Shown here in pieces: positions 2,315 through 12,189 of a stretch of 29,994 bases of DNA. The stretch is from the IMG/VR virus record IMGVR_UViG_3300030380_005164, positions 1 through 29,994 of that record. One strand, given 5' to 3'. The stretch is from a virus. Under the pieces are notes generated by a model. It was given only the letters and a program-made list of their open reading frames with translations. It did not search any database and was not told the origin of the DNA. A program made the position numbers and the translations under genes. Position 1 is the first letter of the stretch; the number at the start of each line of letters is the position of its first letter.

Positions 2315-2579
2315 TATATTCCAAATTCCTATAATGTAAATACTTAGAAATAAAAAAAATAAAAACTTTTTCTAGTAATAACGATCGAAAATTGTATATA
2401 TATTCCTATTTTTTAGGAATTATTCCTAAAATATTCCTAATAATGTATTATATATTGTATTGTATATATACTATATTTGCTTATTTTTCCTAATTTCCTA
2501 AAATATATTTAAAAACTTTTTTACTTTTAAAGTTTTTTTTGTAAGTAACTACATTATAAGAATTTTGGAATTTTGGAAA
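2315..2579. other. AT-rich non-coding region with TTCCTA iterons
   Basis: These 265 bp hold no credible ORF and are extremely AT-rich. TTCCTA occurs at 2326, 2403, 2423, 2434, 2487 and 2495, and its complement TAGGAA at 2414. Several copies are about one or two helical turns apart. AAAAACTTTTT is repeated directly at 2361 and 2511, and AATTTTGG is tandemly doubled at 2561-2576. It lies between two minus-strand genes, beside the small terminase. Candidate roles are a replication origin, a packaging site or an operator region. None is proven. Confidence 0.5.
2411..2431. repeat. Perfect palindrome with 10-bp arms
   Basis: TTTTAGGAAT at 2411-2420 and ATTCCTAAAA at 2422-2431 are exact reverse complements around a single T. 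The centre is too tight for an RNA hairpin loop, so a dimeric protein-binding site is more likely than a terminator. The half-site matches the iterated TTCCTA unit of the same region. Confidence 0.7.
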
Positions 2580-2813
2580 TTATCCTGTCTCCAGGTTTTT
2601 TTCTAACCTGGCTTTTTGCCTTTTAACCTTGGTTATTGTTTCATAGTGATACTCATTATTGAGCCGTTTTGCCCTTGATCCATGACCCGTGGTCCTATAC
2701 CACTTGTCATACGCACGATGATACTCACGGTCATCATCAAAATCTACACGCATAGGTCTTGACTCTAACTCTTCAACAGTTAGATACTGCTCTAACTTAG
2801 TTTTCCTTCCCAT
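2580..2813 (-). CDS. Hypothetical protein (77 aa)
   Basis: Starts at an ATG with a strong AAGGAG about 6 nt upstream and encodes 77 charged residues. The pattern YHRAYDKWYRTTGHGSRAKR in the middle and a Lys/Arg-rich helix KVKRQKARLEKNL at the end suggest a small nucleic-acid or protein-binding polypeptide. I know no family for it. It is the last gene before the AT-rich region and follows another small acidic gene with a 16-bp gap, so they are probably co-transcribed leftward. Its 3' end contains an inverted repeat that on the plus strand looks like a terminator. Confidence 0.65.
   Translation of the reverse strand: MGRKTKLEQYLTVEELESRPMRVDFDDDREYHRAYDKWYRTTGHGSRAKRLNNEYHYETITKVKRQKARLEKNLETG
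2591..2616 (+). terminator. Terminator-like hairpin on the plus strand
   Basis: CCAGGTT at 2591-2597 and AACCTGG at 2605-2611 form a perfect 7-bp stem with a 7-nt T-rich loop, followed on the plus strand by CTTTTT. It lies inside the end of the minus-strand gene 2580-2813. It could stop plus-strand transcripts coming from 1511-1798, or be chance within coding sequence. Confidence 0.3.
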
Positions 2814-3209: not shown

Positions 3210-3893
3210 TTATTTATCTACATAAAGCTCGGTTTCGTGCCTTATAAGGAGTTTTTTAATATCAGAATCACTAGCTCTGGCCACACACCAACGCTGAATA
3301 AATTCTAATAACAGGTAATTTCTTTCAAAATATTCATTACCTCGCTGACGAAAAGCCCGGTAAATGTGGTGTAACTTGCTTTCGGTAATCACATCACTTT
3401 GTTCTCGCATACCTAATAAAAAAACACCCTCTTGTGAGCCAACCAGGTCTCGCATACGATTCCAAATATCATTGGATTTACCAATCTTGATCTTGTCATC
3501 ACTTTGTAGAAAATAAATCATGGCAGGAAAACGATGTACTTCAAACAACTCGTCATACTCCAAACCCTCTTCAATACAACGCTTTTGTATTTCACGAGCT
3601 TTTTCCCTGGCTTCACTTACCGTCATACTTGGAAAGTAACCAAAGACTTTTGACTTATGCACCGAACCTGAACGATAGTCGTAAGCGTAAGAATGACTGC
3701 CTTTTTTAGAATAATTGACCAACAGGCAGTTAACTTTAGCATCACGAACATAAAACGAACGACGACCCGCCATCATGACATGCCACTCAACTAAAAAATG
3801 GTCTGTGAGGTCAACAATTTTGTCAGCAGAGCGTGTACGACCTTTAGCAGATTTTTTATTATAGTCGGGCGTTTTATAATGATAACGACTCAT
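3210..3893 (-). CDS. Arm-type DNA-binding domain fused to T5orf172/GIY-YIG-like domain
   Basis: About 227 residues, counted from the ATG at 3893. A TTG two codons earlier is possible, and neither has a clear ribosome site. In 229-aa numbering, residues 33-105 look like the arm DNA-binding (DUF4102-type) domain at the N-terminus of tyrosine integrases, ending VFGYFPSMTVSEAREKAREI, the typical GxYP...S..EAR..A block. Residues 127-205 look like a T5orf172/MUG113 domain of the GIY-YIG superfamily: MIYFLQSDDKIKIGKSNDIW, then a paired His, then GNEYFE, with Glu at the expected site. No tyrosine recombinase catalytic domain follows, so it is not an integrase. It probably binds DNA and may nick it. 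The domain calls are from motif memory and the pairing is unusual. Confidence 0.65.
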   Translation of the reverse strand: MSRYHYKTPDYNKKSAKGRTRSADKIVDLTDHFLVEWHVMMAGRRSFYVRDAKVNCLLVNYSKKGSHSYAYDYRSGSVHKSKVFGYFPSMTVSEAREKAREIQKRCIEEGLEYDELFEVHRFPAMIYFLQSDDKIKIGKSNDIWNRMRDLVGSQEGVFLLGMREQSDVITESKLHHIYRAFRQRGNEYFERNYLLLEFIQRWCVARASDSDIKKLLIRHETELYVDK

Positions 3894-3931
3894 ATTCAAG
3901 GTTTATAACAAAAACAAATACTTAAAACAAG

Positions 3932-4227: not shown

Positions 4228-4701
4228 TTATATTTTTAAAGGATCTATGAACAATGTGGTGTGGTATGTGGTAGATGATTCCATAATTAAACAGCGTAGG
4301 TCTCTTATTTTTGCCCTTATTTGCCTTTTTTGCCTTGATCCGTGGCTCATGTTCAATCTTTTCCATAAACGCTGGTATTCAAGCCATTTCAGCTGTCTAT
4401 TACTAAACCTGACTAAGCCCTGGCGTATCAATCGCAGGTAAATATCACGAACATTGTCTGGATCTAAATCTGCCCAGTAACAAGCGTGTTGAAAATCTCT
4501 ACCTTGTTCTAAAATCCAATTGTGAGCAATGGCTTTAGCAACGGATGGTTTTCGTTCGTGGCTTTCTATTAAAGTATCTTCCAAAGCGTGAGCAATGACT
4601 CGTCGCCAAAGGCGTGTTTCCGGGAGATAACTGTTATCATTTATAAAATCAGCGTGTAGTTGATAAGATTCAACGCTTTTATTACTCTCGTCCATAAGCA
4701 C
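4228..4701 (-). CDS. Hypothetical protein (157 aa), regulator-like
   Basis: The frame opens with GTG at 4701, and an ATG at 4695 is equally possible. No ribosome site is clear, and the upstream stop lies only 6 bp away, so coupling is likely. The segment YLPETRLWRRVIAHALEDTL is a pattern seen in many small phage and bacterial proteins of unknown function. It is followed by a predicted helical region ending in a basic stretch, MSHGSRQKRQIRAKIRDLRC, which would suit nucleic-acid binding. There is no membrane segment. I cannot name a family. It may be a small replication-associated or regulatory protein, judging from its position just after the operon terminator. Confidence 0.55.
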   Translation of the reverse strand: MLMDESNKSVESYQLHADFINDNSYLPETRLWRRVIAHALEDTLIESHERKPSVAKAIAHNWILEQGRDFQHACYWADLDPDNVRDIYLRLIRQGLVRFSNRQLKWLEYQRLWKRLNMSHGSRQKRQIRAKIRDLRCLIMESSTTYHTTLFIDPLKI

Positions 4702-5886: not shown

Positions 5887-7152
5887 TCAAGACTTTTTTT
5901 CTGCGTTAATTATAGCATTACCAATAAACCAGGCTATTTGAGGTACGATAGCGTTACCTAATCCTTTGATTCTTCCGACTCTACCTTTGTCCAGTTCATA
6001 GGAAATCCCATAAGGAACTCCACAAAGTTCGGATTGAGTTTGCCACCAGTTTTCTCCTTGTTGTAAGTGTGCTGTACTGCCACATCCAGTGTGTCCCAAC
6101 TCACTTTCCCCTTCCTGATTCTCCCACCTTGGTAACCACCTTTGTGATCCCTGGATGTCGGTGTCGGAAACAGTTTCTTTACGGTGTTGGATAACATCTT
6201 CTGATTCGCTGTGTCCATGTTCTTCCAATCCGACGCTTGAGGTGTCGGATACATCTTCTGTTTCTCCAGAAACAACATCGCATCGCTCAACTTCGCTCCG
6301 AATGTGCTGTCTGGTTTGTTCTTCTTCCTCAGAATAAAACTGCCATTGGGGGTAAGCTCTACTCTGCTGCTCTGTTCTCCCCCTTCCTCGCATCCTACTG
6401 TCGGTGTCGGATACATTCTCACTGTGTCCGCCAAATTCAAGCTGTGACTGTTCTTGCCATCCTTGGTCAGTCTGCGGTTGTTCTCGGTCAGTTTCATGTC
6501 TGGATGTTCTATCTCTTGAGTTGTCGGTGTCGGGTACATTTTCATGGTTTCTGGGTCTACTTGCTCCCTTAGATTGCTCGGCTTGGTTCTGCCTTTGCGA
6601 TGTCCCTCTTGTAGTTTCTTGGTGCTTTCTGGACTTCTTGGTGGCAAGTGATCCATTGTGTTCGGAGTAGCCAATAATCCAGAGTCTTTGCCTTTGGTGC
6701 CATGCACCAACGGATGAAGCTGGAATAACAAATGTCCTTGTGTCGTAACCTTCGCTCTCCAAGTCCTGGAGTACGGTGTCAAGACCGAGTTTAATGTGCC
6801 CACTAACATTTTCTCCAACGAACCAAGTGGGTTGGCACTCTTGGACAAGTCTAAAAGTGTCTGGCCAGAGGTGTCTTGGATCTTCTTCGCCTTTTTGTTT
6901 GCCTGCGACACTAAAAGGTTGGCAGGGGTAGGAACAAGTGAGGATGTCAATGCCATCAACTCCTGTTCTTTCTTTGATATCTTCATAAGTCAACTCCTTT
7001 AAGTCATTAAATATTGGAACACCAGGAAAGTTTTTTTGCAATACTTGTCTTGGGTACTTTTCTATCTCACAAAAGGCAACCGTGTTGATACCTAGCTCAC
7101 GAAAAGCCAAAGCCCAACCACCAATACCTGAACAAAAGTCTAAATGATTCAT
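5887..7152 (-). CDS. dcm: DNA C5-cytosine methyltransferase
   Basis: The 421-residue frame begins at 7152 (MNHLDFCSGIGGWALAF), where GAGGTG lies 7 nt upstream; an earlier in-frame start at 7185 lacks a ribosome site. The protein transfers a methyl group from S-adenosylmethionine to cytosine C5. Visible motifs are motif I FCSGIGG (6-12), motif IV PCQPF (76-80) with catalytic Cys77, motif VI ENV (114-116), motif VIII QRQRLWIIG (153-161) and motif X GNAIVPQIA (from about 399). The region between VIII and X, normally target recognition, is hydrophilic and contains four V-P/S-D-T blocks (nucleotides near 6523, 6400, 6239 and 6157). It likely protects phage DNA from host restriction. A second ORF is nested in another frame. 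Target sequence unknown. Confidence 0.9.
   Translation of the reverse strand: MNHLDFCSGIGGWALAFRELGINTVAFCEIEKYPRQVLQKNFPGVPIFNDLKELTYEDIKERTGVDGIDILTCSYPCQPFSVAGKQKGEEDPRHLWPDTFRLVQECQPTWFVGENVSGHIKLGLDTVLQDLESEGYDTRTFVIPASSVGAWHQRQRLWIIGYSEHNGSLATKKSRKHQETTRGTSQRQNQAEQSKGASRPRNHENVPDTDNSRDRTSRHETDREQPQTDQGWQEQSQLEFGGHSENVSDTDSRMRGRGRTEQQSRAYPQWQFYSEEEEQTRQHIRSEVERCDVVSGETEDVSDTSSVGLEEHGHSESEDVIQHRKETVSDTDIQGSQRWLPRWENQEGESELGHTGCGSTAHLQQGENWWQTQSELCGVPYGISYELDKGRVGRIKGLGNAIVPQIAWFIGNAIINAEKKS
5958..6986 (-). CDS. Nested +1-frame ORF of the PTPT-repeat, MTase-associated family (342 aa)
   Basis: This ORF lies wholly within the methyltransferase gene, same strand, shifted +1, covering about codons 56-398 of it. 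It has its own AAAGGAG 7 nt before its ATG (6984-6986). The product starts MKISKKEQELMALTSSLVPT. It has a TSGQTLLDLSKS block (39-50), YSRTWRAK (72-79), DSGLLATPN (101-109), PTP-containing blocks at about 151, 192, 246 and 273, a DGKNSHSLNLADTV segment (176-189), and GKLNPNFVEFLMGFPMNWT near the end (315-333). I remember this motif series from proteins annotated near phage and bacterial C5 methyltransferases. So it appears to be a true second product, not a shadow. Function unknown; an accessory or specificity role is inference. Confidence 0.6.
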   Translation of the reverse strand: MKISKKEQELMALTSSLVPTPANLLVSQANKKAKKIQDTSGQTLLDLSKSANPLGSLEKMLVGTLNSVLTPYSRTWRAKVTTQGHLLFQLHPLVHGTKGKDSGLLATPNTMDHLPPRSPESTKKLQEGHRKGRTKPSNLREQVDPETMKMYPTPTTQEIEHPDMKLTENNRRLTKDGKNSHSLNLADTVRMYPTPTVGCEEGGEQSSRVELTPNGSFILRKKNKPDSTFGAKLSDAMLFLEKQKMYPTPQASDWKNMDTANQKMLSNTVKKLFPTPTSRDHKGGYQGGRIRKGKVSWDTLDVAVQHTYNKEKTGGKLNPNFVEFLMGFPMNWTKVESEESKD

Positions 7153-7168
7153 TGTTTCACCTCTACTT

Positions 7169-9046
7169 TCACACCGCTTCTCCAAAGTTATTACCTAATG
7201 CTACATCCACAACACTTGGTACTTTTAATTCCACACAAGTTTCCATAGCTTCTTTAATTTGTTTGGCTTGTTTATCACTCTCTACATTAAAACATAGTTC
7301 ATCATGCACTTGTAATAAAGGTTGATGTCCTAATTCAATACAATTAAGAATAGCTTGTTTGGTTTGATCGGCCGCACTACCTTGTATTAAACGGTTGAGT
7401 GCTTTATAAGTAAATGCTCTTTTGATGTTTGCTTGACCGTACTTAGCCGATGCGTTTTCAAAACGCTCTGCTGTATGTATACCAAAATCACGAGGTTCCC
7501 ACATATCAAACCTACATTTACGACCTAATTTAGTCCTAATAACACCTTCATTGTCTGCTTTTTTCATACACATATCAGACAGCTCTTTTACAAAAGGAAC
7601 TTTTCTATTGTATAAATTTATTAAGTCATGGGCTTCATCATTTGACACACCTAATTGTGTACCCAATTTATTTTTACCCATGCCATACATTAAACCTAAA
7701 CCAATCGTCTTTGCTTGTTTACGATCAATACCAACTAAATCAGCGACCGTTTGATGAAAGTCAGCATCACCTTTTTTATAAGCTTCTACTAACTCTTTTG
7801 AACCCGCAAAACCATCACCTACACTAGCAGCATAATGCACCACAAGTCTTGGCTCTTGTTGGGAGTAATCAAAGCTACCCCACTGACAATCTTTTTCAGG
7901 TAAAAACAAACCTCTAATCAGTGGTCCAAACTCTTTACTCCGGGCAGGTAGTTGTTGCAAGTTAGGATTAGACATCGCTAATCTGCCAGTAGTTGTACCA
8001 CCTTGTTCGTTTTTAAGTTGTCTTATCTCACCGTGAATACGACCGTTATGTTCAAACTTCAAAATAGAATTAATAAAAGTGTTTTGAAACTTATTAAGTT
8101 CTCTTGCCTGGACTATTAATTTACTAAGTTTATGTGGCGAGTTGTTCAACCATTGTGCCGTAAAACTAGGTTCTTTTGATTTTGCTGTTTTAGGGTAATC
8201 AATACCTAGCTTATCAAACGCATGACCAATCTGTCTTGCTGCCCATATATCTACATCAGTTCCAGTTAATTTCTTTATATCGTGTAAAACTGTTTTCTCT
8301 CGTTTTGAAAAATCCTTTTTAAGTTGGTTTGCTTTATCAACATCTACTCTAATACCTTGCATACGCATATTAATTAAATGTGGTAATAACTTACTCTCTA
8401 AATTCCATATAGTGTTTAAACTTTGATTTTGTATCTCAACCTTAAATCTTTGCCACAACATATGAGTAAGTCTTGCATCTTGTTCTGCATAAAATCCTAC
8501 ATGCTCTGCGGGTAATTTCCACATCTCCCCTTTTGGATCTACTCCATGCTGTTGTGCAGCTTCAATCAATTCAGTTTCTGCTTTTAATTCACCTAAATAA
8601 TCTTTTGATAAACTATTTAGTGCATAGCTATACCTATTTTCATCAATCAATGCACCCGCTACCATCGTGTCTACAATTGTTCCGTGAACCGTGATTCCTG
8701 AGGCTTGTAGCCAACCCACATCGTACTGAGCGTTGTGAAATATCTTTGTTCCTGGCAAAGCACATACATCTTTCATGTATTGCCAAACTTGTTCCTTAAT
8801 TAAATTACCGCCACCCAAATGTCCAAAAGGAAAGTAACCTTGCCAACCCGCAACGGCAACGGCAAAGCCAACAATCTCACCAGACTTCGTAGCCCAACCT
8901 GCACCCATACCTGAATTAATACCATCATCACGAGTCTCCAAGTCAATAGCGATTTCATCATATCCACTCAAATCCTTGTACTCACTGGGAGCTGACCATA
9001 TTGATTTTTTAAAACTAAAGTTTAACTGTAATCCATCACTGTTCAT
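7169..9046 (-). CDS. polA: Family A DNA polymerase with 3'-5' exonuclease
   Basis: The replicative polymerase, 625 aa. The ATG at 9046 is preferred because AGGAG lies 8 nt upstream. The frame is open to 9280, but that stretch lies in the helicase gene. The exonuclease has IDLE (Asp35, Glu37), NAQYD (Asp109) and YAEQD (Asp190). The polymerase has TTGRLAMSNPNLQQLP (352-367), motif A FDYSQQEPR (Asp393), motif B KQAKTIGLGLMYG (443-455) and motif C QVHDE (579-583). The position equal to E. coli Phe762 is Leu450, a variant known among viral family A polymerases. There is no 5' nuclease domain, as usual in phages. It overlaps the helicase end by 11 bp and precedes the methyltransferase, in one operon. 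Confidence 0.95.
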   Translation of the reverse strand: MNSDGLQLNFSFKKSIWSAPSEYKDLSGYDEIAIDLETRDDGINSGMGAGWATKSGEIVGFAVAVAGWQGYFPFGHLGGGNLIKEQVWQYMKDVCALPGTKIFHNAQYDVGWLQASGITVHGTIVDTMVAGALIDENRYSYALNSLSKDYLGELKAETELIEAAQQHGVDPKGEMWKLPAEHVGFYAEQDARLTHMLWQRFKVEIQNQSLNTIWNLESKLLPHLINMRMQGIRVDVDKANQLKKDFSKREKTVLHDIKKLTGTDVDIWAARQIGHAFDKLGIDYPKTAKSKEPSFTAQWLNNSPHKLSKLIVQARELNKFQNTFINSILKFEHNGRIHGEIRQLKNEQGGTTTGRLAMSNPNLQQLPARSKEFGPLIRGLFLPEKDCQWGSFDYSQQEPRLVVHYAASVGDGFAGSKELVEAYKKGDADFHQTVADLVGIDRKQAKTIGLGLMYGMGKNKLGTQLGVSNDEAHDLINLYNRKVPFVKELSDMCMKKADNEGVIRTKLGRKCRFDMWEPRDFGIHTAERFENASAKYGQANIKRAFTYKALNRLIQGSAADQTKQAILNCIELGHQPLLQVHDELCFNVESDKQAKQIKEAMETCVELKVPSVVDVALGNNFGEAV

Positions 9047-10655
9047 ATTTACTCTCCTGTAAGTAAACAAAATAATCTTCTCCCATAGGGTAGTTATATT
9101 GATGATCGGTTGATAATAAATGTAATGTATCTTTAGCCCTTGTTGCTCCTGTATAGTACACTCGTTTTTCGTCAGATTGTTCTTCTCGGTTCTTATGACT
9201 AAAAGCAGAAGGCCAGTTTGTTTTTGAGTACAATAAAACATTGTCCGCCTCTCCACCTTTGACCGAATGAATGGTGTCAATAATAATTTGTGGTTCTTTA
9301 TCTAAAGCTTTTTGTCCGTAATTTTTTAACAAACGCACAAAATAATTTACTTGTTCAGGTTTAAAGTTACGCTGTAACACTTTCCACCATACTAGTTCTT
9401 TTGTTTCCACAGGTAAATCAAGACCACAAAACTCAACCAAATAATCAAAATCATAGATATCAGCATTTGGCATTTTCAACCAAAACTTTTGAGTTCTATA
9501 ATCTGGATCTTTTATATCACGCAAGTATTGATACATAGTTTCCGCTGACTCCCGGTTCAATGGTTTTTGGTTAGACAAACGAGTCCAGGCTTTAATTGCA
9601 ATCCATTGTTTTTTATCAAAAGACTTTGTGCCAGAGTTGTTAGAAAAATATAAACCTGATTCTTTAGCACACATACGCAATTCATTCACTGTTGTGTTGA
9701 CACGACCTAAAATATACCAAGTACCTTTGAGTTCTGTAATTGGAACTTCTTGAAAACTTAAATATCGTTTTACCGTGCCTTGTTTGTCTTGACAGTCGTA
9801 TTCTTTTTCAACACTGTCTAAAATACCACGGCGAATAACTTTAGAAAAATGATGTATTGCCTCACCAAAACGGCGAGTCTTTCTTAAGATAACCTTTCTC
9901 CCAGGAAAGTAAGTTGTGAAGTATTTTGGATCTGCACCATTCCAACGGTAAATACCTTGATCATCATCACCCGCTAAATAAATGCGTTTTACATTGTCCG
10001 CCATTTTGTAAATGACTGACCACTGCAATGGTGTAAAGTCTTGTGCTTCATCTAAAATTAAAACATCTAGAGGTGGAAAGTTTATTTCATCTACTGCTCT
10101 TAAAATCATGTCCGTAAAATCTATAAACGAATCTTTTTTATAGTGCTCGTAAGTTGATATCTTTCGTAAATAAATATCCATATTATCTTTTTTGTACGAC
10201 TCTTTCTTATAAGTTAGTCTTGGATCTTCCATCATGTTCCGTGCTTTGTCATACACACCCAACGACCAATCCTTATAAGTAAAGTTATCATCAGCTAAAC
10301 GAGTGTCAGATGTTTTAATAATCTTAGCTTCCATAGCATAGTCCAACATACAGTTCTTTGGATCAAACACTTCTTCTTTGAAGTAACGACGACAATATTT
10401 ATGTAATGTCTTGAAACGAGTAAAGTCTTCTGTTGTAAACTGTGGAAAGGCAGCTAATGCTCTATCTCGTGCTGTGTTAACAGCTTTATTGGTAAATGAA
10501 ATAAAAGCAATGTTGTTTGGGTGCACCCCTTTTTTCAAATAACCTTTTAATACACGCTCTATCAAAGTGTGTGTTTTACCTGTACCTGGTGGACCAAATA
10601 TCTTAATGGTCTTGTGGTGCAGAGCTTTCTGTTTTTCCAGTCCTGAATTTTGCAT
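9036..10655 (-). CDS. SF1 (UvrD/PcrA-like) DNA helicase
   Basis: An ATP-dependent DNA helicase of about 539 residues from the ATG at 10655; a GTG at 10676 is also possible. Neither has a ribosome site, and the start lies inside the end of the primase gene, implying coupled translation. Motifs, numbered from the ATG: Walker A GPPGTGKT (21-28), SFTNKA (Ia region), Walker B LILDEAQD (about 199-206), motif III region AGDDDQGIYRWNG, motif IV-type TRRFGEAIHHF, motif V IDTIHSVKGGEADNV, and motif VI VYYTGATRAKDTLHLL. The set is complete and intact. It is short for UvrD, with the 2B region reduced. No DnaB-type helicase gene is visible, so this may be the replicative helicase or a recombination helicase. 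Confidence 0.9.
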   Translation of the reverse strand: MQNSGLEKQKALHHKTIKIFGPPGTGKTHTLIERVLKGYLKKGVHPNNIAFISFTNKAVNTARDRALAAFPQFTTEDFTRFKTLHKYCRRYFKEEVFDPKNCMLDYAMEAKIIKTSDTRLADDNFTYKDWSLGVYDKARNMMEDPRLTYKKESYKKDNMDIYLRKISTYEHYKKDSFIDFTDMILRAVDEINFPPLDVLILDEAQDFTPLQWSVIYKMADNVKRIYLAGDDDQGIYRWNGADPKYFTTYFPGRKVILRKTRRFGEAIHHFSKVIRRGILDSVEKEYDCQDKQGTVKRYLSFQEVPITELKGTWYILGRVNTTVNELRMCAKESGLYFSNNSGTKSFDKKQWIAIKAWTRLSNQKPLNRESAETMYQYLRDIKDPDYRTQKFWLKMPNADIYDFDYLVEFCGLDLPVETKELVWWKVLQRNFKPEQVNYFVRLLKNYGQKALDKEPQIIIDTIHSVKGGEADNVLLYSKTNWPSAFSHKNREEQSDEKRVYYTGATRAKDTLHLLSTDHQYNYPMGEDYFVYLQESKYEQ

Positions 10656-12189
10656 GATAATCGTCGTCAATTTCACTTACTGCGTGTTTTGTTTTGGATT
10701 TGCTTTTTATTGCTTGATGACTCACAAAGTCTGGCATCTTCACCCACCATATATTTTTCTCTCCCTCGTGATAATCCTTACGCTTACATTCTAACAGACG
10801 AAGAGCATCAGCGGGAGTGTTAAATACCCCATTTGCCTTTTTTTTCAAGAAGTTAGATAAGGTAATCTTTTTAAAATAACAAATATTACTTTTAGAATCC
10901 AACACGACATAACCATCTTTTAGTTTGTCAAACTTATCTTGTTCAATGTGAGATTCAAAAAAATCTTTTAAAACTCTATATCGTTCTTCTTCAACAGTGT
11001 CCTCATACAAATGATCTTTATTCTCAATTGCTTTCTCAACAATGCCTTTCATTAACAATTCAAAAGGCACTGGACCTTTTCTTGGTTTAGGTAAAGACAT
11101 CCAAAATAATTTATATTGTAGAAGTTTGACCCGAAAAGATTTTTCATCTTTCATATCACTAGGAGTGATCATCACATGTTTACCCTCATAATCAAATTCA
11201 TAAAAAATTGTTTTGGTATCCATGATATAAGTAATGTTGTCAAACTTATCAATAATGTCAGGTGTTGCCTCACCAATGCCAAGTCGTCTTGTTTTACATA
11301 ATTCTTTGTTACAAATAGGTTGAAACTCTGGGTGTTTAGGTGGACATTGAAATTCATATCCTTGTTTATGTACGGATTTACACAAATTAGTAACTTCATT
11401 CTGTCCCAAAGGCTTTGTAAAAATTTGACTGTTTCGTTCAAAAGCAACTTCTTCTATTTGTTGTAGAGACAAACCTTGGTTTTTTTTCATCTCTAATACC
11501 ATGACATTGAATAAATAATTATTACGATTATTACCAGACCAACCCTCTTGAACTAATTTTTGCACACAAGGGGGATAGTGTGACCACTCACTTTCGGCAT
11601 CATATTCTGCCACTGAAAACTCATAAAATTCATCTGGGTCAATCTTTCTTTTGTTAGCAAATTCAATGAAACGACCAACCATCATTGGTGTGTTACTATC
11701 GTCAAAACCATATTCCATTGTGGCATTACAATTAAAATACGGCATATTAACGGCTTTGTTCATTGGAAAAACTTCATCAGATAAAAAATATTGTTCGTTT
11801 ATCTCATTAAGCTTTTGCTTTACTTTTATTACTTTTGCTTTTTGTTTAAAAAATACAAATATATGTAAACCACCCGACTTTGATTTTACGGGCACAAAAG
11901 GTAATTTATATTTTGCAATTATCTCTACATACTTTTTCTCAGAGTAATCTTTGTAATTGTTTGGGTCTACATCAATACAACCCCAAAAACATTCGTCACC
12001 GATTTCAGGTTTGACTCCGATACGAGTCTTACCGTCAAGGTGTTCTTTCCAGAGTTCTGCGGTTAGAGATTCTTTTACAGTGACATATTGTGCACCTTTC
12101 TTGCCCCTCTCGTCGTCCTCACCCGTAAGTGAGGACTTCAAGTAGGAACTATCATCTCCTTCAAATAAAGAAAATAATTCTTTGTGCAT
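10603..12189 (-). CDS. Archaeo-eukaryotic-type (AEP) DNA primase
   Basis: A 528-residue protein that should make primers for the family A polymerase. Around residues 64-112 it shows the AEP signature. GDECFWGCIDVDPN supplies the metal-binding D-x-D (Asp73, Asp75). VPVKSKSGGLHIFVFF supplies the S-G-G-x-H nucleotide-binding motif (His109). The C-terminal half is long, with a cysteine/histidine-containing segment (FQCPPKHPEF followed by CNKELCKT) that may bind zinc, and a helical region resembling accessory domains of phage primases. The ATG at 12189 follows the SSB-like gene's stop by two bases and has no Shine-Dalgarno, indicating coupling. It overlaps the helicase start. The AEP call is firm by motif, though the subfamily is not settled. 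Confidence 0.75.
   Translation of the reverse strand: MHKELFSLFEGDDSSYLKSSLTGEDDERGKKGAQYVTVKESLTAELWKEHLDGKTRIGVKPEIGDECFWGCIDVDPNNYKDYSEKKYVEIIAKYKLPFVPVKSKSGGLHIFVFFKQKAKVIKVKQKLNEINEQYFLSDEVFPMNKAVNMPYFNCNATMEYGFDDSNTPMMVGRFIEFANKRKIDPDEFYEFSVAEYDAESEWSHYPPCVQKLVQEGWSGNNRNNYLFNVMVLEMKKNQGLSLQQIEEVAFERNSQIFTKPLGQNEVTNLCKSVHKQGYEFQCPPKHPEFQPICNKELCKTRRLGIGEATPDIIDKFDNITYIMDTKTIFYEFDYEGKHVMITPSDMKDEKSFRVKLLQYKLFWMSLPKPRKGPVPFELLMKGIVEKAIENKDHLYEDTVEEERYRVLKDFFESHIEQDKFDKLKDGYVVLDSKSNICYFKKITLSNFLKKKANGVFNTPADALRLLECKRKDYHEGEKNIWWVKMPDFVSHQAIKSKSKTKHAVSEIDDDYHAKFRTGKTESSAPQDH

Follow-up and report, generated by a model that had tools for sequence, protein, structure and literature searches.

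What could be the role of a very AT-rich stretch, crowded with copies of one hexamer, that lies directly upstream of a phage small terminase gene? An earlier note had drawn attention to such a stretch at positions 2315–2579 of the window, by which we mean the whole DNA analysed here (the full 29,994 bases of an IMG/VR record), and had suggested that it may be a replication origin, a packaging site or an operator. The window comes from a pelagiphage of the HTVC023P type, of which it is a fragment: the DNA polymerase shares 72% identity with the counterpart in Pelagibacter phage HTVC023P and the small terminase protein (TerS) 55%. The stretch is upstream of the TerS-like ORF 1802–2314, which is on the minus strand, and Rfam gave no match within the window. 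Of the three readings we consider the packaging site, itself an inference, the best.

The repeats described in the earlier note are all present. TTCCTA starts at 2326, 2403, 2423, 2434, 2487 and 2495 and its inverse, TAGGAA, at 2414, all of them within 2315–2579; in the whole window AAAAACTTTTT occurs only at 2361 and 2511 and AATTTTGG only at 2561 and 2569, and 2411–2431 is a perfect 21-bp palindrome, TTTTAGGAATTATTCCTAAAA, with a free centre base. The region is also AT-rich, as had been said, with a GC content of 17%. The 265 bp had been described as free of genes; since the TerS ORF contains, besides the GTG at 2314, an ATG at 2305, the gene-free stretch may begin nearer 2306. What the earlier note missed is a long imperfect inverted repeat which encloses the array (2323–2355 and 2533–2565, 33 nt, 85% complementary) and belongs to a left arm at 2533–2571 and a right arm at 2317–2356. 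Read on the TerS strand, on which the direct box is TAGGAA, the order is left arm, A/T tract, D1 (2495–2500), D2 (2487–2492, 8 bp from D1), a spacer, D3 (2434–2439, 53 bp from D2, which is the long spacer class), D4 (2423–2428, 11 bp from D3), the inverted box I5 (2414–2419, plus strand), which forms the palindrome with D4, D6 (2403–2408, 20 bp from D4), a second A/T tract, right arm and start codon; an outlying direct box, D7 (2326–2331), lies within the right arm. Could DNA so rich in A and T form such repeats by chance? For the palindrome alone this is quite possible, since arms of at least 10 appeared in 36 of 2000 shuffles. The boxes are not matched in this way: dinucleotide-preserving shuffles held 0.35 of them on average and 3 at most, none of 2000 reached seven, and no hexamer with at least two G/C attained seven copies in any of 2000 shuffles of the region.

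The neighbouring gene is, as the earlier note proposed, a small terminase, with an SF6/SPP1-like DNA-binding domain. Of 35 members of the TerS family, 32 matched Terminase_2 (E up to 1e-3), the window protein scoring below Pfam's own cut-off (21.2 versus 26.1 bits). In the structural model of TerS (mean pLDDT 72) a long helical hairpin comes after a helix-turn-helix (HTH) domain. Foldseek with this model matched no TerS at a significant level (E 3.6 for the best TerS row) and a PDB sequence search with the TerS profile returned no terminase, the best hit being a bacterioferritin chain at E 0.19. In a second structural comparison the closest chains were those of SF6 TerS, namely the DNA-binding domain 2cmp, 4zc3 and the full-length 3zqq; 2cmp aligned over 56/56 residues with rmsd 1.5, 32% identity and Z 7.7, a value within the range which the tool calls common. 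Two other minus-strand genes recur around the array. The one at 1061–1453 we take, from the look of its sequence, to be a VRR-NUC-like nuclease, and its PHROG matches are to DNA helicase and endonuclease. The other, at 4228–4701, is conserved upstream of the array and corresponds to gp19 of HTVC023P (10226–10666); the proteins of this gp19-like family have about 145–157 amino acids. On the same strand, 3210–3899 encodes a protein with Arm-DNA-bind_3 and T5orf172 domains, both barely over the Pfam cut-offs, and about 1 kb is read in two differing frames by the minus-strand ORFs 5887–7185 and 5958–6986. One of these frames matches the Pfam C-5 cytosine methylase (147 bits) and the other a PHROG 'DNA methyltransferase' family (4e-36); this may be genuine overlapping coding, and the GC content of the window peaks in this stretch.

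Are the repeats a peculiarity of one fragment? Half of the condition under which the earlier note would have given up its view was a lack of conservation in related phages; they are conserved. A search based on TerS yielded 15 loci, and boxes were found in all 14 that had DNA upstream of TerS, with a degenerate D4 in one pair (L008, L016), as well as in HTVC023P itself. Scanning 2.9 million viral contigs with the pattern D1–D2–spacer–D3–D4 gave 90 stretches, each contig having a single match among the matches listed. In 97 of 101 array loci (the window and duplicates included) a TerS ORF lay downstream on the same strand, and the other four loci end within 102 bp. The position of D1 is conserved among relatives, and the internal distances are 8–9 bp for D1–D2, 11 for D3–D4, 7–9 for D4–I5 (inverted) and 20–21 for D4–D6. 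Neither I5 nor D6 was part of the scan pattern. Even so, 64 of 66 distinct loci have I5 at +7 to +9 from D4, and at +20/21 the D6 box reads T[AG]GGAA or TAGG[AT]A in 60 of the 66 and CAGGAA in 5 more. In 257 Gb of genome contigs there was one strict match, on a 3.7-kb contig from a Flavobacteriaceae MAG (L208, DIAL01000039.1) which carries the gp19-like gene, the array and TerS; given these ORFs, it is probably a phage contig binned into a bacterial MAG. Chance repeats are refuted by the box shuffles, by conservation across clades and by the fact that this one match in so much genomic DNA is itself on a phage-like contig.

The array is also a single-copy element. Exactly one strict array was found in each of 12 near-complete records, and in seven genomes the array was the sole cluster of at least three boxes, boxes elsewhere being near expectation (for example, 46 versus 40.0 in HTVC023P). 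The distribution among relatives was examined with a TerS-profile search that was independent of the DNA pattern. Among the best 80 of its 282 loci, 76 had at least 350 bp upstream, and of these 19 carried a strict and 53 a relaxed array. In the other 23, which lack a relaxed array upstream, variants were seen by eye in five (L133, L181 and, partly turned round, L184, L185 and L188) and partial arrays in L144, L156 and L157; in the remainder a different gene abuts TerS, or boxes are absent. Upstream of TerS in L184, L185 and L188 there are sub-clusters such as TTCCCA-11-TTCCCA-20-TGGGAA, part of the array being reversed relative to TerS. HTVC027P and 023Pt_psg01, whose TerS is distant, had no cluster of three boxes in their entire genomes, and no array was seen by eye upstream of TerS in DSL-LC04. 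From the 23 of 76 loci that lack the relaxed array and from the former two phages it follows that this type of array is not general to the wider group. A limited search of the literature on HTVC023P and pelagiphages, which took in PMC9599517 and PMC12753301, found no description of the element. The proposal of a cis site bound by a phage protein thus stands in so far as sequence can speak to it, with conserved repeats, one array per genome and TerS as the neighbour.

Is the array then an autoregulatory operator of terS alone? A relaxed scan gave 117 stretches; among the 103 distinct arrays of the loci analysed, TerS was directly downstream in 91, which favours such an operator. The exceptions tell against it. 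VRR-NUC was directly downstream instead in seven arrays, one was followed by a SET-domain ORF near a contig end and four had too little DNA. In G017, whose lineage is among the seven, and in G012, which is additional to them, the gp19-like gene adjoins TerS with no array between (for G012 this was read at the L134 locus). A complete array with both arms and with no mismatches to the relaxed pattern is found in G017 about 4 kb past TerS, directly before VRR-NUC and upstream of the large terminase. In G012 a looser box-cluster scan found a five-box cluster about 3.2 kb past TerS, again before VRR-NUC and upstream of the large terminase. Of 17 records picked for an absent or odd upstream array, G017 alone had a match to the relaxed pattern at another place, and the remaining four matches were the four positive controls; a reversed control pattern matched 2 of 21 records, so a match with two mismatches is weak when taken alone. 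In one group of pelagiphages a SET-domain ORF lies between the array and TerS (9432–9815 in L055, and similarly in L085, L082, L023 and L051; 26.5 bits to Pfam SET, whose cut-off is 22.4). The otherwise similar phages L061 and L085, and likewise L063 and L082, differ by this insertion of about 320 bp. Since the array is kept where TerS is displaced, it is not merely a terS operator, and we consider that reading very improbable. The displaced arrays and the SET-ORF cases together indicate a stand-alone element at the boundary before the terminase/late module.

The D2–D3 distance was 42–44 bp in 173 and 53–54 bp in 31 of 204 arrays, which were not de-duplicated, and the two classes are one helical turn apart; the range searched (36–65 bp) and the box criterion shape this result, and by the same criterion the D1–D2 pair was absent from 14 of the 103 relaxed-scan arrays. 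The strict pattern with gaps of 0–24 or 56–86 had no matches. On a tree of 95 TerS proteins the spacing class switches at least four times, and one of four changes (L244) is accompanied by an extra 11-bp copy of the box. In the window D3, D4 and D6 lie 5.05, 6.1 and 8.0 helical turns from D2. The arms co-vary between clades: for 23 clade representatives the identity within own pairs was 18.9 of 26, compared with 17.0 for permuted pairs, and this was reached in 0 of 20000 permutations. Arms were undetected in three of the 23 (L061, L062 and L102), with 14–16 of 26 against a shuffled mean of 15.1 by this ungapped measure. When 66 loci were compared all against all, with clades left unreduced, the contrast was weak (mean percentile 0.64), because arms are common to close relatives. 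The element is also predicted to be strongly bent. Under a wedge model, it is the maximum of predicted curvature in four of five genomes (HTVC023P, G002, G007 and G011), and in the fifth, the window, it reaches the 99.03 percentile and not the maximum. The mean predicted curvature for the 23 representatives was 140 degrees versus 70 in shuffles; for 22 of them at most 2 of 40 dinucleotide shuffles reached the observed value, and for the remaining one, again the window, 3 of 40 did so.

Several of these features would suit a replication origin, in which the boxes would serve as iterons for an initiator and the A/T tracts as the unwinding element. The low GC content, the iteron-like and helically phased boxes, the palindrome, the single occurrence per genome and the predicted bend all agree with this, as does the position of the array at the edge of the replication module. 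However, no initiator gene was recognised adjoining the array, and the array is linked to terS and the large terminase and not to primase, helicase or polymerase. The earlier note had looked to a switch in GC skew; in six near-complete genomes the skew was uniform along the coding strand with no switch at the array, which weighs little, since skew follows the gene strand. We regard an origin as unlikely. Contig ends, used as a stand-in for genome ends, gave no clear sign of a first cut there: six fell within 200 bp of the array where 2.6 were expected, with no significant clustering (80 of 90 contigs), and five near-complete contigs break at differing places and have no exact end overlap of 15–399 bases. 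Circular genomes have been reported from terminal overlap in PMC9599517.

Might the boxes and arms instead have no role in packaging and be the operators through which a phage regulator, of which the gp19-like protein is one possibility, acts on the promoter that opens the TerS/VRR-NUC/late operon? Inspected by eye, the right arm is near the start codon of the gene that comes next, be it TerS, the SET-domain ORF or VRR-NUC, and a weak sigma70-like match (10/12, TTTACA-16-TATAGT, 2340–2313 on the minus strand) overlaps it and runs to the TerS start. The gp19-like gene was present in every member of one set of array-bearing genomes and, among array loci with 3 kb or more of upstream DNA, in 54 of 58; it was not found in two array-less relatives. 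However, promoter-like matches turn up about as often in shuffles (2.8, against 3 observed), and the lack of a second array in seven genomes is unusual for a regulator. Two arms, six phased boxes over some 200 bp and a strong predicted bend exceed what a simple operator needs. The gp19-like model is confident (pLDDT 85) and all-helical, but comparison with the PDB gave no convincing match and no convincing DNA-binding relative; in Pfam 31 members had weak, scattered matches (best E 0.0097), and those in PHROG were likewise weak and scattered, with one member matching a transcriptional-regulator family at 3.2e-5. Moreover, where TerS and the array part, the gp19-like gene remains with TerS. All in all, transcription control without packaging seems to us rather unlikely. 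Beside the left arm, within the end of ORF 2580–2813, there is a terminator-like hairpin with a T-run (2591–2611, plus strand; 1 versus 0.1 expected).

We therefore return to packaging. Our hypothesis, to which we give about an even chance, is that the region is the packaging-initiation (pac) region of HTVC023P-type pelagiphages and is SPP1-like, with a TerS ring on bent DNA and an overlap with a promoter. It draws on the conservation of the array, its single copy per genome, the helical phasing, the co-varying arms, the identity of TerS, the predicted bend and the place before the terminase/late module. TerS as the binder, cleavage at the array and transcription control are what we infer beyond these. 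In such a complex a TerS ring would wrap the intrinsically bent 100–200 bp or so, with D2, D3, D4 and D6 all facing the same side of the helix. The wrapped DNA would then be presented to the large terminase, whose first cut might fall in the D2–D3 spacer or at an arm. A ring that places one HTH at each turn agrees with the fixed helical phase. Since the right arm is only a short way from the start codon of the gene downstream, this complex may regulate terS or late-gene transcription as well, which has been reported for SPP1. One result does not sit easily with a simple reading of the boxes by TerS: its recognition helix (residues 50–60) is the most variable helix of the protein (mean entropy 1.52 versus 0.68–1.19 for the others), while the boxes hardly vary. 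It is conceivable, and we offer this speculatively as something quite unlikely, that the region is a pac of a new build, in which the TerS ring wraps the DNA without reading it, a second protein (the gp19-like one being a candidate) reads the invariant boxes, the fast-evolving inverted arms mark ends or cut sites, and the phase (42–44 or 53–54 bp) is the constraint. If true, such a site would separate 'reading' from 'wrapping' and would double as a switch from late transcription to packaging.

How does the element compare with known systems? In the pac of phage P1, clusters of a hexamer lie on both sides of the cut. The present array resembles it in that short hexamers, grouped into two clusters on either side of a spacer, occur close to a packaging gene; the hexamer differs. 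The cosB of lambda has repeated TerS sites with a bend between them, which is comparable to the several putative TerS sites in helical register with bending here, whereas the TerS considered here is SF6-like and no cohesive-end site was found. Iteron origins, such as SPP1 oriL (PMC6316719), share direct repeats and AT-rich DNA with our region, but they differ from it in that here no adjoining initiator gene was recognised and there is no skew signal.

The closest parallel is the pac of SPP1 and SF6, and most of those features of an SPP1-type pac which are visible in a sequence occur here. According to PMC4737164, SPP1 pac has three sets of direct repeats that span promoters and the TerS start, and its authors propose that a ring of HTH domains, about one turn of B-DNA apart, selects intrinsically bent DNA. 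In SPP1, as PMC6316719 describes it, gp1 binds pacL and pacR, gp2 cuts between them and pac overlaps promoters. The pelagiphage region is alike in its repeats beside the TerS start, the similar fold of the TerS DNA-binding domain, the suspected promoter overlap and the bend, which is predicted here and proposed in PMC4737164; binding and cutting, which have been shown for SPP1/SF6, are proposed here. PMC4737164 reports that the DNA-binding domain of SF6 TerS has little sequence preference and does not follow the repeats, so the conserved boxes of the pelagiphages are not predicted by that model. According to the same paper the box A repeats are not conserved in the SPP1/SF6 pair. In the pelagiphages, by contrast, one hexamer occurs six times in the fixed order D D / D D I D; only two helical spacings are allowed, the inverted arms co-vary and the array can lie kilobases from TerS. 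The work on SPP1/SF6 raised the question of whether TerS selects its site by repeats or by intrinsic bend. Should the region indeed be a pac, this question could be tested directly on the many variants that nature provides. The boxes, the helical phase and the predicted bend are all conserved here and can be separated by mutation.
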